64,000 nucleotides of DNA from Myxococcota bacterium (GTDB taxonomy: Bacteria > Myxococcota > JAJVIH01): positions 41,464 through 105,463 of the forward strand of contig JAJVIH010000050.1 of the NCBI GenBank assembly GCA_022072125.1, written 5' to 3'. The position numbers and the translations under genes were made by a program. Below the pieces are notes generated by a model. It made no database searches. It worked only from the letters and a program-made list of their open reading frames with translations, and was not told the DNA's origin. Shown piece by piece: positions 35,748 through 46,569 of the stretch. The stretch's first letter is position 1, and every line of letters starts with the position of its first letter.

Positions 35748-36320
35748 TTATTGGCCTGCGTTTTCTGGCGTGCAATTGCCGGGCCAGCGGTTTGGACCGG
35801 TGGCTTTCAGCAGGCCGACACAGGATTCGTTCATGCGCCCCACCATGAAAGATTCCCGTTTGCCGCCGGGGCACATGACAGCCAACGAATAGTGTTGTTG
35901 ATCACCTTTGGTTTCATAATGAATGGGAGAATATTTAATGCCAGTGAAAAAATAATCGTCTTGTGGGTTTTTAATTGATTCGCCGTGCCATGGCATGGAA
36001 AAACAAAACGAACCGGCTTTTTCCATGGTCCATATCTCTCGGTTCATCTTGAGCACGTGACCACTCGACCAGCGGATAACGGTTTCATCTCGAGTGGTGG
36101 ATGCCGTGCAGGCTCCCGTCACCACGCCACAGGGCTCGTTCAGCTTGGTCAGGCAGGACTGGTTGGCTTCCAGCACCTGCTGGCATTCCGGCCTGAAAAA
36201 CAGCACATGCGATGCTTGTTCTGGCATGAGAGGGTCAGGATCAATGATGAGTTCATCCTCGCATGACACCAAGCCCATCCCCATCATCAGCAGGACCGCA
36301 GCCGTCCACAATGAGTTCAT
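35748..36320 (-). CDS. Small Cys-rich lipoprotein, unknown function
   Basis: 190 residues from ATG at 36320, behind GGAG at 6 bases. Lipoprotein signal ends in GMGLVSC (Cys 20). The mature part has about nine Cys in blocks: RPECQQVLEANQSC, EPCGVVTGAC, FCFSMPWHG, AVMCPGGKRES and a final NESC. These suggest a small disulfide-bonded domain facing the periplasm or surface. The ATG overlaps the TGA of the subtilase-like gene (ATGA), so its amount is tied to that protein. By position it could be an inhibitor, chaperone or co-surface partner of the protease-like protein; this is inference. Paralogue of the frameshifted gene downstream. Base composition is AT-richer than in surrounding genes. Confidence 0.78.
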   Translation of the reverse strand: MNSLWTAAVLLMMGMGLVSCEDELIIDPDPLMPEQASHVLFFRPECQQVLEANQSCLTKLNEPCGVVTGACTASTTRDETVIRWSSGHVLKMNREIWTMEKAGSFCFSMPWHGESIKNPQDDYFFTGIKYSPIHYETKGDQQHYSLAVMCPGGKRESFMVGRMNESCVGLLKATGPNRWPGNCTPENAGQ

Positions 36321-38674
36321 TTTGTGCTCCATGCGATGGCGACACGAATATCCCTGGACGTCAGGCCGTATTGGGTCACCACTGCCTGACAAGTATAATT
36401 GCCGAGCAGATTGCTTTTTGAATCAATATATATTCCCTCGGAGTTGCCGGTAAAGTTGCGTGATCCGAATATTATAAAGCTCTTATGTGCATGTTTTGTC
36501 TCGCAAAGAAAAAATAAATCCAGATCAGCGTGATTTTCCTTTTCACACCCTGTGACATCTCCGGGAGTGCAAATGGGAGTGATTTCCCATGCCATGACCA
36601 CCCTGATTTGACCGGTGGGGGCGGGTTGAATGGGGATGTTCAGATTCATGGCCCGCAGACCCAACTCATTCGTTGTGTCCCAAAACTTGTCCCGGCGGAA
36701 ATCCGAGGGCCTGATGATGCTTTCTTCCCAACCATTTTCGCGGGGTTGTTGAGGGTTCAATCTTCCCCCACGTGGTCCCCGGATCAAATCCAGGGCACTC
36801 CGTACATTTAAAAAGCCGTAACCAGCATGATGATCCAGATTTTGCAATTTGACATCATCAAGGTTAATTCCCATCCATGGTGGAGGACTGTTTATGATTT
36901 TACCCACCTCGGGCAAAATCGGACCGTCCCATGGCAATGGAAAGGCAAACACCCGATCCATGAAAATATCACCGTTACCTCCTAAACTCATCCAGTATGT
37001 GCCCATGTGGTCAGCGGACGCGAAGAGGATTGCCTGGGCCAAATGAGGTCGTTGGATGATGTGTGGTTCAATGGCCATTATTCTTGCCACCGCGCTGGTT
37101 ACAAAAGGTGCCGAGAGACTTGTACCACTCTCTAATACACGTTCCAGCGGCTCATTATCCCCCGGAACTTCCACGTCTTGTCCACGCGCCATGAGATGGG
37201 GCATTTCCATGAGTCTGCCGAATGATCGTTGGTTGCTGATCGAGGAAAAATCGGCCCGCCCAGCTTGTTTGTAGCTAAATTCACGTATGTGGAGTGGTTT
37301 TGGTGTGGCGCCGACAACGAAACCATTGTACAGGCTATGGCTGACAAACGCCTCATGGTCCCGAAAACATTTCAGATGCCCTTCTTGGCCATCATCGGGG
37401 TTGATGACATCCGCAAAAGTATCGATCCGCGAGCATCTGCCCTGGTTTCCGGCGGAGGCGACCCAGACATGTCCGCTTATTGTAGCGAGATAGTCGGCAT
37501 ACCGGTCTATCACGCTGCGCGTGAAACGCTCATCCACGTATTCCTCGTAACGATCCTGGCCGTCGTCATCGCGGTCCCATTCAAACGCGAGTCCAAAAGA
37601 CATATTGCTTACCTGATATCTGGCCAGCGGCATTAAATAGGTCAAGCCCTGGTCGCCAAAACCACCATCTTTTAATTTAAACCATCCCAGCTTGGCGCCG
37701 GGAGCTCCACCACGGGCGCTCATACCACTTGCGGGGCCGTTCCGGATAATTGAACTGACTTTGACAACATGGGCTGCTTCACATGGATCATCGAGTGAAA
37801 CATATTCATCGGGACCCAACCCGTAGTTCCCGATCCATGCGGGACCACGCCCACATGGTTCCACTACGGCAATATTGATGCCTTGCCCCCCCACGCTACT
37901 TGAAGGAAATTTATGATGAATAAACAAATCAGAAGAAAGCAAAGAGGGCTTGTCATCATCATGGTTGTGAGTTTCAACCCCTCCACTTTCTCCATCATAT
38001 ATCACCTCTATTTTACCGAGAGCCTTGTTCCGCAGGGCGACAAAATCATTGGCCGGCAGAGTCACTTCAATCATCGGGCCAAATATCTTTTTCACTTGGG
38101 CATAGGAATCCTCATTGATATCGAGTCGGTCAAGCACCACGCTCTGCTCGGCAAGCCATGCGGAGGCCAATTGCTCGATGGTGGCGCCCGCCGCCTTCAT
38201 CGCGAAATAGTTCTCGGGGGCGTACAGCCACAGGATCATCCTCACCGGGTCGGCGCCCTTGCCCTCGGCGATCATCCGCGCCACCCGCGACTCCAGCGAG
38301 GGCTGGACAAACCACGGCGCCTCGCTGTCGGCGCGCACGGGCGCCGGGGCCTGGAATTTTTTCGGCACCACCGACCCCTCCGGAAATCCCTCTTCCAGCG
38401 GAATCAGCAACCGCACGCCCTCGTTCTCGGCGTACAGGGCGTATCCCCTGGGGACGCCCCCGCCGGAAACGCCGCCATCGCGGCCGCCCGCCACGCCGCC
38501 CTGGCCCTGGCGGACATCGTTGTTCGTGGTGGAATTGTTCGTGGAGGTACAGTTGCCGCCCGAACACGAGGTGCTGGTGTTCGTGATCGTGATCGGCGGC
38601 ATGGAGGTCTGACATCCCGCCAGCATGTGGCTTGCCAGCGCCATGACCGTGATGGTGAGGGATTTCGCGTTCAT
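36317..38674 (-). CDS. Subtilase (S8)-like lipoprotein with Glu at the catalytic Asp position
   Basis: 785 residues from ATG at 38674 behind GGAG. Lipoprotein signal ends in HMLAGC (Cys 21). Residues 22-55 are a Ser/Thr/Asn-rich leader (PPITITNTSTSCSGGNC) shared with the gene at 38710. A Gly-rich stretch and a prodomain-like region follow to about residue 240. The S8 core runs about 260-640: INIAVVEPCG (Glu where D-T/S-G is expected), CEAAHVVKVSSII (His), VSNMSFGLAF, WVASAGNQG (oxyanion Asn), ESGTSLSAPFVTSAVA (Ser). The C-terminal domain is a PPC/P-like beta-sandwich (RVVMAWEITP, ADLDLFFLCE). Cys-rich. Coupled by ATGA to the small lipoprotein. GC-rich 5' quarter, AT-richer remainder. Activity uncertain because of the Glu substitution. 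Confidence 0.85.
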   Translation of the reverse strand: MNAKSLTITVMALASHMLAGCQTSMPPITITNTSTSCSGGNCTSTNNSTTNNDVRQGQGGVAGGRDGGVSGGGVPRGYALYAENEGVRLLIPLEEGFPEGSVVPKKFQAPAPVRADSEAPWFVQPSLESRVARMIAEGKGADPVRMILWLYAPENYFAMKAAGATIEQLASAWLAEQSVVLDRLDINEDSYAQVKKIFGPMIEVTLPANDFVALRNKALGKIEVIYDGESGGVETHNHDDDKPSLLSSDLFIHHKFPSSSVGGQGINIAVVEPCGRGPAWIGNYGLGPDEYVSLDDPCEAAHVVKVSSIIRNGPASGMSARGGAPGAKLGWFKLKDGGFGDQGLTYLMPLARYQVSNMSFGLAFEWDRDDDGQDRYEEYVDERFTRSVIDRYADYLATISGHVWVASAGNQGRCSRIDTFADVINPDDGQEGHLKCFRDHEAFVSHSLYNGFVVGATPKPLHIREFSYKQAGRADFSSISNQRSFGRLMEMPHLMARGQDVEVPGDNEPLERVLESGTSLSAPFVTSAVARIMAIEPHIIQRPHLAQAILFASADHMGTYWMSLGGNGDIFMDRVFAFPLPWDGPILPEVGKIINSPPPWMGINLDDVKLQNLDHHAGYGFLNVRSALDLIRGPRGGRLNPQQPRENGWEESIIRPSDFRRDKFWDTTNELGLRAMNLNIPIQPAPTGQIRVVMAWEITPICTPGDVTGCEKENHADLDLFFLCETKHAHKSFIIFGSRNFTGNSEGIYIDSKSNLLGNYTCQAVVTQYGLTSRDIRVAIAWSTK

Positions 38675-38709: not shown

Positions 38710-40312
38710 TCAGGGGGTGAACTCCAGTTTCCACGCCGTGCCGAAGGCTTCCGGCGCGCCGATGGGCAGGGTCGAGCCCACCATCCAGAAGGCGGCGGAG
38801 CTGGTTGTCGTGGGGGGCGGGGGAGCGAGCATGGTTCCCCACACGCCGCGCACCGAGGTCTTGCTCAGCAGGTATTTGTTGTCGGTGGTGTCGGCGTCCA
38901 GCTTTTGAAACACCGGGGCGGCGGCGGCGAAATCCGCCCAGGCCACCATGCCGTTGTCGCCCGCCACCAGGACCGGACGCTTGTTTCCGGCCACCGCGCC
39001 AAACACGCCGCGCAGATGCCCCGCCCCCGTGACGGGGCCGCTCAGGTTCGCCCATGAGGAGGTGTTCTTGCGCGCCAGGGTTCCGCTTTCGCCCACCACG
39101 ACGATATCGGCCGATGGGTTGGGCGCCGCGAACCAGACCCCATGCAGGTGGGGCGAGGCGGAGTTGGTTCCGCGTTGCACCACGAAGGCTGGAGCGCCCA
39201 GGCCGGAATCGCGGGTGAAGGTGGTTCCGGCTCCGTCGGTGGAGATCAGCACCTCCCCGGATTCGCCCACCGCCACCACGGTGATGGGGGAAGCGGTGGC
39301 GGAGTTGTCCTTCACCATGGCGTGAATGGCGTAAATCTCGCGCGCATCCGCCGGAAGGGTGGCGGAGGTGATCGTGCCGCCGCCGCCGGCCACCTCGTGG
39401 TAGCGGGTGATTTTCACGCCGTTGACGGCGGATTTGACGGCCCACCACACAAAGCGCTCGTCCAGTCCGGTGGCGTTTTTGCGGACCACCGCGGTGACAT
39501 CGTACGCGCGGGAGTTGGCGTCCGCGCCGTCACCCAGACCGGAGAGGACCCAGGGGCTGGCCAGCGGAGCGGTTTTGGGCAGGTGATATTTGCGTTTGTA
39601 GGTGGGGGTGGAGGCCGGAATGGCGTCGTGGCCGGTGGAGCGGGCGGTGATGCCAGTGCCCAGGCCATCCAGCCCCACGGCGGCGAAGACCGATTCATCG
39701 TTCAGGTGGAAGCCGTGGATATCGGGATCGGTGAGAGAGGGAATGGGGTTGTCCATGTTCCCCAGGTGACCCGTGCGCAGGCTGATGATGCGGTGGGCGT
39801 TGCCAGCGGTGGCGACCATGGGGGCTTCCCCGCCGATGTTCACGCCGTACACGGCGTTGAGCGGCGTGATATCGGCCACTCCGGCGGTTTCCAGATCGCC
39901 GTTCATCAGCATGAGGGGACCCACGCCGGGGCCGCTTCCGGCATCGGCGCCGGTGTCCGGCGTGACGTCTCCGAAGCCGCCGTCCGCGGGGCTGGTGTCG
40001 CCCGAACCGTTGTCGCCGGGAAAAACATCGGAGGCGCCGGCGTCGCGCGGGGGCCGGGGCTCGAAGGGGTCGGGCAGTTCGGGAAACTCGACGCCTTCCC
40101 CAGCGGCGGCGGCCTGGGTTTGTCCGGTGGTATTGCTGGTGGTGGTGGAGTTGCTCGCCGTGCAGTCGCCATCGGAGCACGAGGTGCTCATGTTGGTGAT
40201 GGTGATGGGCGGCAGGGAAGCCTGACATCCGGCGAGCAGAAACAGGCCGGTCAGCGCGGCGGTCAGTCTACGGTTGGCATGGCCTTTGCTGGGGGGGGGG
40301 TAGGTGGCGCAT
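38710..40312 (-). CDS. BNR/Ycf48-like beta-propeller lipoprotein with start out of frame across a G10 tract
   Basis: The track ORF starts at 40191 (MSTSCSDGDC), but the same frame extends upstream through an unmistakable lipoprotein signal (RRLTAALTGLFLLAGCQ) and PPITITN, matching the leader of the gene at 36317. That extension has no ATG, GTG or TTG. The only good start is ATG at 40312 behind AAAAAGG, seven bases away, and it is one base out of frame because of ten C (coding strand). Nine C would give MRHLPPPSKGHANRRLTAAL and a 534-residue lipoprotein. As written, translation stops after 14 codons. The mature protein has Asp/Gly-rich linkers, then BNR-like blades (DESVFAAVGLDGLGTG, EVLISTDGAGTTFTRDSG, NKRPVLVAGDNGMVAW). 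Likely surface-exposed binding protein. 35 bases before the subtilase gene, same operon. Confidence 0.72.
40291..40300. repeat. Homopolymeric G10 tract inside the 5' coding region
   Basis: Ten consecutive G on the + strand, ten C on the coding strand, located 9 to 19 bases inside the ATG at 40312. Its length decides whether the start is in frame with the signal peptide and the mature protein (nine or twelve: in frame; ten or eleven: early stop). Confidence 0.9.
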
Positions 40313-40613
40313 GGTCAATCCTTTTTAGGCTCTGGGGGAGTCGCCGGTTTGCGCTCGATACTGCCTGATTCATCGCAATGGTGCCTAAATGCGCAGCCAC
40401 TGTCAAGGGATTTTTTTCTTCGCTCAAACCTGAACGTGTTGTGTCTTCCCCGCGCGATCGGGATTGGCGCGGCATTGGCGCCGCCAGCGTGAATGCATGG
40501 GGAATTTGACGCTGGAGCCGCGTTCCCCGCGCGGCGGCGCGGAGGGGAATCGTCCGGAAGCGCGTTGTTGGACGATGCGGGGAGCGGCGCGCGTGATCAG
40601 CGCCGGGGGGTGA
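40313..40613 (-). promoter_or_regulatory. Promoter region of the lipoprotein operon
   Basis: Gene-free stretch of about 300 bases upstream of the propeller lipoprotein. On the minus strand a consensus TTGACA (40406-40401) is followed 17 bases later by CACCAT, a weak -10, giving a leader of about 60 bases. The strong Shine-Dalgarno AAAAAGG lies at about 40319-40325. The part nearer 40550-40613 is GC-rich with no gene signal; it is the 3' flank of the barrel protein gene. Confidence 0.4.
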
Positions 40614-43384: not shown

Positions 43385-44506
43385 TTATGGGAGAAACTGC
43401 CCGGGGTTGGCGATTTTGGCGGGCAGGTACTCGTCAATCACGAAATTCAGGCCCCATTTGGCCAGCGCCTGCTGCTCCGCGCGGACGCCCATGTTGATCA
43501 GGTCCTCCATGGCGTCAGCCCATTTTTTGTGGACATGGAAAAAGGGGTCGTTCTTGAGGGCGTCGCGGGCGCGCTTGATATCCACGTCCTTGAGCGGATG
43601 GGTGGGCAGTTTGTAACGCCTGATGTCCTCCGGGGTCACGCCCAGGTAGCGGGCCTGGGGCACGCAGAAAAACTGGTTGATATGCGCGGCGTTTCCGGAG
43701 CCCACCTTGAGGGTGCGGTAGATATTGGAGATTCCGTAGGGATCGCAGTCCACGAAGGCGTAGACGGGGATTTTCATTTCATCGCTGAGGCGGCGGACGA
43801 ACCGGCGGCATGCGCGGGAAGGCACGCCGCCCATGCCGATGATGATGCAGTTCATCTTCTTCCAGAACTTGTGATACTGGAGACGGTCGAATACGCCGCC
43901 GGTTTCAATCGCCAGAATGAATTTCGCGCTGGTTTTGAACCCCAGGTGGTCCACCCGCTTGGGAATGGAATAGGCGCCGGAGCCGAAGCGCGTGCAGTCA
44001 ATCTCGATGGTTTCTCCGGTTTCGCGGTCGCGATCATACACGATCAGTTCGCCGCCGACGGCGCCGCCGTGCTCCTCGGGCAGAAAACGCAGTTCCTCGC
44101 GCGAGACGCCATGCAGGGAGAACATCGCCTCGATGTCGTCCATCACGGTGTCGGATTCGTCCTGCTCGTGAAACATCGCCTCGCCCCAGTTCTTGGACTG
44201 GTAATAGGCGTCCCGCTTGGTGGCGAAGTCGTTGGTGACCACCAGTTCCTTCGACAGCGCCATCATGCGCAGGGTCTGGGCGAAGGTCTTGACGGTGTTG
44301 ACGGTGAGCGTGCGCTGTTTCTTGTGGCGGCCCATTTCAAAGTAGCCGCGCCTGGTGTCGTATTTGACGTTCTGCAGGCTGCGCACCGGAAAATCCATGA
44401 CCGGCTTCGAGAGCCTGTTGATCTTGTCATAGACCTGCCGCGCCACCTTCTCGATGCTCTCGATGGTGATCTGATCCAGCTTGCTGTTGATGGTGACTTC
44501 CGACAT
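43385..44506 (-). CDS. top6A: DNA topoisomerase VI subunit A (Top6A/Spo11 family)
   Basis: 373 residues from ATG at 44506; the longer ORF extends into top6B. This subunit makes the double-strand break. The winged-helix CAP domain has the catalytic Tyr in ATKRDAYYQSKNWGEAMF. The Toprim domain has the Mg-binding acidic residues: ILAIETGGVFDRLQ (Glu) and VYAFVDCDPYGISNIYRTL (DxD). DIRRYKLPTHPLKDVDIKRA near the C-terminus is also typical. Length matches archaeal Top6A. The gene follows top6B by 17 bases on the same strand. Topoisomerase VI relaxes and decatenates DNA in archaea and plants and is found in only scattered bacteria. Confidence 0.95.
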   Translation of the reverse strand: MSEVTINSKLDQITIESIEKVARQVYDKINRLSKPVMDFPVRSLQNVKYDTRRGYFEMGRHKKQRTLTVNTVKTFAQTLRMMALSKELVVTNDFATKRDAYYQSKNWGEAMFHEQDESDTVMDDIEAMFSLHGVSREELRFLPEEHGGAVGGELIVYDRDRETGETIEIDCTRFGSGAYSIPKRVDHLGFKTSAKFILAIETGGVFDRLQYHKFWKKMNCIIIGMGGVPSRACRRFVRRLSDEMKIPVYAFVDCDPYGISNIYRTLKVGSGNAAHINQFFCVPQARYLGVTPEDIRRYKLPTHPLKDVDIKRARDALKNDPFFHVHKKWADAMEDLINMGVRAEQQALAKWGLNFVIDEYLPAKIANPGQFLP

Positions 44507-44523
44507 GGCGTCTGACCCCGGGG

Positions 44524-46569
44524 CTACATTTTGCGGGAGCGCGACAACACCTCGTGCAGGTTTTCCTCGGTGCGTTCGCGTTCCGGTTTGCCCAGCTTGA
44601 GGATTTGCTCCAGCGACTCGCCGATATGCGGGATGTACTTCTCGATGTACCCGCGCTTTTTCATTTCGTCGGCCATGCGCCGCTGCTTGCGCAGGTAGAT
44701 GCCCAACTCCCGCCCGCATTCCTGCATGGCGAGCTTCATTTCCTTGATGATTTCCGGATAGTGCGCGATCGCCTCTTTCGATTCGCTGGTGAAAGGCACC
44801 CACACGCTGGCGATATGCACCGCCAGGGTTAGCGGCCCGGATGGCAAGGCGCCCTTGCTCTGCTGCAACTGGTAGTTCTTCCACGCCACCTGAACGGCGC
44901 TTTTGTACACGGCGCAGGCGCTCTGCTGATAGAGCAGGGGGACCCGGTTCGCGAACCGCACAAGCTGGATCAGTTCATCGGCCGGCTGTTCGCCGCCGTA
45001 AGCCAACGCCACCTCCACCAGGAACGGATTGCCCCGGTACACCGAGGGCGGGCGCGTGCGCGCGGTGTAAAAATCCGCCTTGACCTGCTGCCTCAGTCCC
45101 GCCATCAACTGCTCCTCGCCGATGGGCGAGAGGCAGTTGGTGGGCGGCGCCATCAATTTGGTTTTGTTGATGGCCTGGTAGAGCGCCTCGGCGCCCTCCC
45201 GCCGCACCTTCTTCGGTTGCGAATCGGGGGAGACGCCGGCGGCCTTGCAGATCTCCTCCGCCGCCCGCGGGCTGACGCGCGAGAAATCATTGGACAGGAA
45301 GCCCCGCATGTTGCGGGCGTCGGTGCTCTCCAGCTTTTTGATCAGGATGCCGAGTTCGACGCCGTGCGGATGGGGTTTGATCTCCCGGGCTTCCGGCGGA
45401 AGCTCATTCGCCGCGCGTTCATACTCAAAGGTCTCGCCGCGCGGATTCCGGTAGCTGAAGCGGGCGTGGGGATTGGCGATGGCCGTCTGCTCCACATAAC
45501 CTTCGACCGATTGCCTGCCGCCGCGATAGAGCCCCTGCAATTCGATGGACACCCGGGTGCCGTGGGGAATGGGTTTGGCGAGCAGGTCCTCGCCGTCCTT
45601 CCACTCGATGGTCTCGTCCTTGAGGATGACCGGGTTGTTTTTCACCATGTCCATCTGGACCACGAAATGGTGCGCGGGCTGTTTGTCGCCGGTGCGGCTG
45701 ACGACATCCACCGGCTGGCCGGTGGTGAGCTGGCCGTACATGCCGGCCGCGGAAATGCCGATGCCCTGTTGCCCACGCGACTGCTTGAGGCGGTGAAATT
45801 TCGACCCATACAGCAGCTTGCCGAAAATCTTGGGGATCTGCTGCCGCACGATGCCCGGGCCATTGTCGGTGACGGTGATGCGGAAGCGATCCTCCGCCGC
45901 CCCGGGATCAATTTCGATTTTGATGCTGGGCAGGATGCCCGCTTCCTCGCAGGCGTCCAACGAGTTGTCCACCGCTTCCTTGACGGTGGTGAGCAGCGAT
46001 TTGATGGGGTTGTCGAAGCCCAGCAAATGCCGGTTCTTGGTGAAAAATTCGGAGATGGAAATCTCGCGCTGGTTGGCCGCCATCTCGTGGGCGGTCACGC
46101 GCTTGCGGGCGCCTTTCACCGGTTTGGGCGGAGCGGCCTGCTCCAACTCCTCTTGGGCGGGGGGAGCGGTCCGGGTCCGCTTGGGGGCGTCCGCGGGTTT
46201 TGATCCCGGTGCGGCGTCCGCGGGGGAGGGCGGTTTGCCTTTCCCGCGCGCGGTTTTGGCGGGAGCCTCCGCGGCTTTTTCCCGGGCTGGTGGTTTGGAA
46301 ATGGATTTTCCGGGCTTGCCGGCTCCCTTGCTTTCCGCTTTCCCAGGCCGGTCAGGCGCGGCGGCCTTGCCGTTTTTCGCCGGCGCCTTGCCGCTGGCGG
46401 GCTTGGCCGGCGGGGCTTTGGCGCTCGCGGGGGCGCTTTTGCCGCGCGCGGCGGCGCGGGAGGTCTCGCCCGCCGGTTCGCCAAACAGCGAAAGGGTCGC
46501 GGCGTCCGCGGGGTTGCGCCCGCGGGCTTCCGCCGCGGGGCCGGAATCTTGCTGCTCCACCGGATTCAT
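44524..46569 (-). CDS. top6B: DNA topoisomerase VI subunit B with Lys/Ala/Pro-rich N-terminal extension
   Basis: 681 residues. Core from about 158: EFFTKNRHLLGFDNPIKSLL, GHKL ATPase motifs KEAVDNSLDACEEAGILP, VTDNGPGI and SRGQQGIGISAAGMYGQ, then H2TH and transducer domains (RMADEMKKRGYIEKYIPHIG near the C-terminus). ATP binding dimerises B and drives strand passage through the break made by A. Residues 1-155 are unlike archaeal Top6B: low-complexity Lys/Ala/Pro/Gly/Ser (APPAKPASGKAPAKNGKAAA), like histone H1 tails, probably disordered and DNA-binding. No Shine-Dalgarno is seen at the ATG (46569), so the start could differ, but the extension is open and Lys-rich in one frame only. Confidence 0.93.
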   Translation of the reverse strand: MNPVEQQDSGPAAEARGRNPADAATLSLFGEPAGETSRAAARGKSAPASAKAPPAKPASGKAPAKNGKAAAPDRPGKAESKGAGKPGKSISKPPAREKAAEAPAKTARGKGKPPSPADAAPGSKPADAPKRTRTAPPAQEELEQAAPPKPVKGARKRVTAHEMAANQREISISEFFTKNRHLLGFDNPIKSLLTTVKEAVDNSLDACEEAGILPSIKIEIDPGAAEDRFRITVTDNGPGIVRQQIPKIFGKLLYGSKFHRLKQSRGQQGIGISAAGMYGQLTTGQPVDVVSRTGDKQPAHHFVVQMDMVKNNPVILKDETIEWKDGEDLLAKPIPHGTRVSIELQGLYRGGRQSVEGYVEQTAIANPHARFSYRNPRGETFEYERAANELPPEAREIKPHPHGVELGILIKKLESTDARNMRGFLSNDFSRVSPRAAEEICKAAGVSPDSQPKKVRREGAEALYQAINKTKLMAPPTNCLSPIGEEQLMAGLRQQVKADFYTARTRPPSVYRGNPFLVEVALAYGGEQPADELIQLVRFANRVPLLYQQSACAVYKSAVQVAWKNYQLQQSKGALPSGPLTLAVHIASVWVPFTSESKEAIAHYPEIIKEMKLAMQECGRELGIYLRKQRRMADEMKKRGYIEKYIPHIGESLEQILKLGKPERERTEENLHEVLSRSRKM

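Follow-up and report, generated by a model that had tools for sequence, protein, structure and literature searches.

A poly-C tract behind the start codon of a lipoprotein gene as a candidate phase-variable switch in a small gene family of a Myxococcota bacterium

The gene described here lies on the minus strand of a 64,000-nucleotide stretch of DNA from a Myxococcota bacterium, the whole of which we call the window. Read in the direction of the gene, its leader contains the sequence TTGACA (40401..40406), a putative –35 element with a presumed promoter role, as judged from an alignment of three related leaders, and then GCATTT-GGCA. These are followed by the Shine-Dalgarno-like sequence AAAAAGG (40320..40326), located 7 nt from an ATG start codon (40310..40312), and, after the segment CGCCACCTA, by a run of ten C (40291..40300; G10 on the plus strand), directly past which stands AGCAAAGGCCATGCC. 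A lipoprotein frame of 526 codons (38710..40290, minus strand) begins with AGC at 40290, after the tract. Reading from ATG 40312 through the C10 tract does not enter this frame and gives instead the peptide MRHLPPPQQRPCQP, 14 codons and a stop (40268..40312, minus strand). Upstream of the tract the lipoprotein frame stays open for 27 nt with no ATG, GTG or TTG. The earliest start in this frame, ATG 40191, lies beyond the lipobox Cys, and coding potential extends upstream of this ATG (score 281 to 302). Automatic annotation would place the start at ATG 40191, after the signal peptide, and the lipoprotein nature of the gene would therefore be missed. The initial annotation had reported that ATG 40312, with AAAAAGG seven bases away, is put out of frame by the ten C, and these sequence facts were exact. 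Its statement that the lipoprotein frame has no usable start also held, with none before the signal peptide and ATG 40191 post-lipobox.

When tract length was varied in silico, it decided between the full open reading frame and a truncated peptide. Tracts of 9 or 12 C gave 533 or 534 codons from ATG 40312 with the N-terminus MRHLPPPSKGHANRRLTAALTGLFLLAGC; tracts of 7, 8, 10, 11 or 13 C gave only 13–16 codons. The earlier proposal that nine C restores the lipoprotein agrees with these lengths, although twelve C would restore it too, and the 14-codon product proposed for ten C corresponds to the peptide read from ATG 40312.

The N-terminus of the lipoprotein frame, SKGHANRRLTAALTGLFLLAGCQAS, is by sequence a lipoprotein signal with the lipobox LLAGC, as had been claimed for the frame downstream of the tract. 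A surface or secreted product is predicted from the signal peptide and lipobox, which are followed by a Ser/Thr/Asn-rich linker and Ycf48-like propeller-type repeats. The designation of the protein as a propeller stood in part. It is backed by homology (E 1e-6) to the tail of one of the paralogues described below, a tail itself weakly similar to Ycf48, but not by Pfam or the structure model: searches of Pfam and NCBIfam returned no family for the window protein, and its predicted structure had a mean pLDDT of 34. Downstream, across a 35-nt gap, lies the gene for an S8 (subtilase) lipoprotein (36317..38674, minus strand) with a related leader, a normal ATG and no tract. Topoisomerase VI is unusual in bacteria. 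On the minus strand of the window, the interval 43385–46569 encodes a topoisomerase VI B subunit (Pfam PF09239) and then, by eye, a probable A subunit.

The G+C content of the window is 63.5%, and dinucleotide shuffles gave a chance expectation of 1.09 C10 runs per 64 kb; genome-wide there were 37 C/G tracts of at least 9. The C10 alone at the window locus is not above chance. Its significance comes from the fact that paralogues share the leader, not from the homopolymer by itself. The pattern CATGCGC followed by six or more C and then AGCAA occurred at exactly three places in the genome (reversed control, 0), and all three matches precede the same lipoprotein leader and are out of frame.

In this genome a leader profile picked out seven genes of the lipoprotein leader family. 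Four have an ordinary ATG and no tract (the S8 protease at 38674, one gene on contig C44 and two on contig C64), and the remaining three have a poly-C leader: the window gene and a pair on contig C44 that we call C44a and C44b. The ATG of C44a is at 6558 of L073, a piece of contig C44, and this copy reads ATGCGCCGTGT plus C8, out of frame by one; that of C44b is at L073 4148, and this copy reads ATGCGCCGTGTT plus C8, out of frame by two. Alignment of the three poly-C leaders gave a common order of TTGACA, GC(A/C)TTT-GGCA, Shine-Dalgarno sequence (CGGAGG in the C44 copies), CATGCGCC with the shared ATGCGCC and its invariant ATG, at least 8 C, and AGCAA. The frame offsets differ, being +1 in the window gene, +1 in C44a and +2 in C44b, and so do the tract lengths, at C10 in the window gene and C8 in each C44 copy. 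When the four leading codons were held fixed (MRHL, MRRV and MRRV), the runs in the window gene, C44a and C44b were 10, 7 and 8 C long, whereas the lipoprotein frame would require 6, 9 or 12. C44a and C44b differ by one base at the tract edge, which by sequence comparison could be either a change of the C tract together with a synonymous C/T substitution or one T inserted beside an unchanged C8. In C44a an in-frame GTG lies 13 nt beyond the Shine-Dalgarno sequence; C44b has no in-frame ATG, GTG or TTG ahead of the signal peptide.

Over the first 80 codons after the tract, C44a and C44b showed 11 differences, 9 of them synonymous and 2 nonsynonymous. Against a synonymous opportunity of 27%, this 9:2 excess has P = 2.6e-4, and the corresponding ratios in the other two frames were 1:9 and 3:7. 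Judged by this substitution pattern, the lipoprotein frame is under purifying selection between the C44 copies. Beyond the common leader, the bodies of C44a and C44b are unlike. Because the same leader precedes different bodies, promoter and leader seem to move together; and as the paralogues are related by duplication, the tract does not have three independent origins. The tail of C44b, read from a second frame (L073:1709-2524), is the part that is related to the window protein at E 1e-6 and weakly to Ycf48. The passenger body of C44b contains a second frame break, near L073:2510-2540, and for this reason the gene may be decaying; alternatively to a gene broken twice, C44b could hold a second recoding site. 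The Ycf48-like tail (ORF 1706–2524, within L073 1706–2540) is in another frame than the body, for which a GCGC duplication near 2535 may be responsible.

A second lipoprotein leader, MNARTERNTAMKTMLLL-TAAMAAAGCQSSGGGVTLNN, has a normal ATG and is present in three nearly identical copies (L073:1494-1706, L070:14909-15127 and L070:13360-13509). The bodies behind these copies differ, and one copy is apparently fused to an unrelated frame (GSGDCARAPCGSLLDYGAGLG). The placement of this leader before different bodies suggests leader shuffling.

C/G tracts elsewhere in this genome, surveyed by pattern searches and in selected sequence stretches, served as controls. Tracts of at least 9 were held in frame by 13 called genes, and three of these tracts have a length of ten. 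In a stricter test of coding on both sides, 12 tracts of at least 8 lay within one continuous coding frame, and one apparent frame shift was a TGATG gene junction. Among the tracts examined, a strong Shine-Dalgarno sequence and ATG followed by at least 8 C, out of frame and with no other good start, were found together only in the three family members. The other poly-C starts of this genome that seemed out of frame looked like ATGs within longer open frames, shadow frames or genes that begin normally further on. On contig C28 (36077–36088, in L122), an ATG is followed directly by C9 (ATGCCCCCCCCC) in frame and in a TGATG overlap with the upstream gene; this is another candidate slippage site, which would be in the ON state. 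The longest tract found in the genome, a G15 on contig C5 (18982–18996; L047:1501-1515), has no called gene directly over it. Long C/G tracts also lie near contig starts (C5:30-39, C9:126-136, C64:60-68 and C73:19-29), and since several tracts adjoin contig ends, the assembly seemingly breaks near them.

No orthologue of the window protein was found among 38 relatives, none of which shares genus or family with the window, nor did GTDB genome contigs contain one, and there was no match to it among plasmids. Across 195 genomes of the phylum, the leader profile matched the seven members in this genome and one further, marginal sequence; it had no match in genome contigs, nor did the leader DNA pattern in viral contigs. 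Elsewhere in the phylum, most starts of the Shine-Dalgarno–ATG–C9 type keep the frame or are followed by a start further on. Two long-contig genomes from this phylum (L164 of G139 and L166 of G082) have Shine-Dalgarno–ATG–C10 or –C11 starts that are out of frame with the downstream coding frame, and these are possibly further contingency loci. A search of one open-access literature collection for simple-repeat phase variation in Myxococcota or Deltaproteobacteria returned no relevant report.

The tract probably acts as a contingency switch of the slipped-strand (simple-sequence-repeat) type for a small lipoprotein family, all three poly-C members of which are OFF in the consensus sequence. Translation would begin at the conserved ATG of the leader, and replication slippage in the C run, presumed to be hypermutable, would shift the downstream frame. 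Matching lengths (9 or 12 C in the window gene) would then yield the full lipoprotein and other lengths a peptide of 13–16 codons, so that ON and OFF states could alternate within a population; the lipoprotein would presumably be located at the surface, where switching might confer an advantage. In all three leaders the homopolymer (C10 in the window gene and C8 in both C44 copies) lies past the start codon at the 5' end of the coding region and reaches the length of about 8–9 or more that marks such loci. In meningococci, deep resequencing found homopolymers of at least 8 to be mostly variable (PMC5084427), and PhasomeIt applies a cut-off of at least 9 for poly-G (PMC5953494). A point against a switch is that the 8-C tracts on C44 are short for fast switching. 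The phase-variable switch proposed in the initial annotation gains from the two out-of-frame poly-C paralogues, their differing offsets, the purifying selection and the genome-wide tract control, but the OFF state of all three copies also fits +1 frameshifting (in two of the three) or decay. If two of every three lengths are OFF, three OFF copies in the assembled consensus have a chance of 0.30.

The lipoprotein could also be made from a fixed tract if some ribosomes slipped forward on the CCC-C proline codons, by programmed or leaky +1 frameshifting. A shift of exactly +1 would bring both the window copy and C44a into frame, and CCC-C near a start is the classic +1-slippery site; such frameshifting rises when proline tRNA is without m1G37, and one of the sites tested was codon 2 of lolB, a lipoprotein gene of E. 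coli (PMC7803779). However, C44b needs +2 or –1, so the family does not share one shift (+1, +1 and +2), and slippage on CCC-C does not require ten C. No stimulatory RNA structure was detected near the tract (z-score –1.0), though not every +1 site needs one, and no hairpins were found at the tract. We regard frameshifting as an unlikely explanation of the tract; it could also supply a low basal level of lipoprotein in the OFF state. Translation of the lipoprotein might instead begin in its own frame at a non-standard codon, or the short out-of-frame ORF might act as a regulatory leader peptide; the in-frame GTG near the Shine-Dalgarno sequence of C44a gives this alternative some support. The window copy and C44b have no in-frame ATG, GTG or TTG before the signal peptide, however, and the short ORF varies in length and sequence among the copies, leaving this alternative very improbable.

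Permanent OFF states would arise if ordinary tract mutation had led to frameshift decay of a small paralogous family, as the out-of-frame state of all three copies and the second frame break of C44b would suggest. Such decay fits less well with a window frame that is intact across 526 codons and has strong coding potential, with purifying selection between C44a and C44b, and with conservation of the promoter, Shine-Dalgarno sequence and ATG. It is possible for C44b, less so for the window gene, and we judge it improbable for the family. Assembly or sequencing error would mean that the real tract has 9 C and that the gene is never off. Errors arise most often in homopolymers, and this is a draft genome of 78 contigs, but each of the three paralogues would have to be wrong, and C44b would call for a different correction. 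A generic homopolymer fault is unlikely because other long C/G tracts in genes, including those of 8–10, keep the frame, and because such a fault would not pick out one gene family; we therefore consider error quite improbable.

Beyond slippage switching of the individual genes, we tentatively propose a phase-variable leader cassette, in which promoter, Shine-Dalgarno sequence, ATG, poly-C and lipoprotein signal may have been copied before different passenger domains, each of which would gain a stochastic ON/OFF switch, in a phylum for which the literature collection searched gave no report of such loci. The type of switch itself is already well known. Most known simple-sequence contingency loci belong to host-adapted pathogens and commensals. 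If the slippage reading is true, bet-hedging by replication slippage would extend to uncultured, probably Myxococcota, lineages, and the question would arise of what these lipoproteins evade or recognise (phages, predators or prey).

As at the slipped-strand poly-C and poly-G contingency loci of Neisseria, Campylobacter and Helicobacter, a long G/C homopolymer lies just past the start codon, here in genes for predicted surface proteins; tract lengths that miss the frame yield a short peptide, and several loci occur per genome. The present case differs in having three related loci rather than dozens, with tracts of 8–10 in the assembled consensus, and in joining a shared promoter-leader to different passengers in an uncultured bacterium of 63.5% G+C. 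The inlA gene of Listeria monocytogenes likewise has a homopolymer at the 5' end of a surface-protein gene, a poly(A) tract that mutates ~1000-fold above the average point mutation (PMC2831843). Its truncated peptide has 8 aa compared to 14 here; the tract is poly-A there and poly-C here, and tract mutation, measured in inlA, is inferred here. E. coli lolB (PMC7803779), also a lipoprotein gene, resembles the window gene in its CCC-C close to the start. At lolB, however, frameshifting lowers synthesis, whereas here it would be required for synthesis, and one of the three copies needs another shift.
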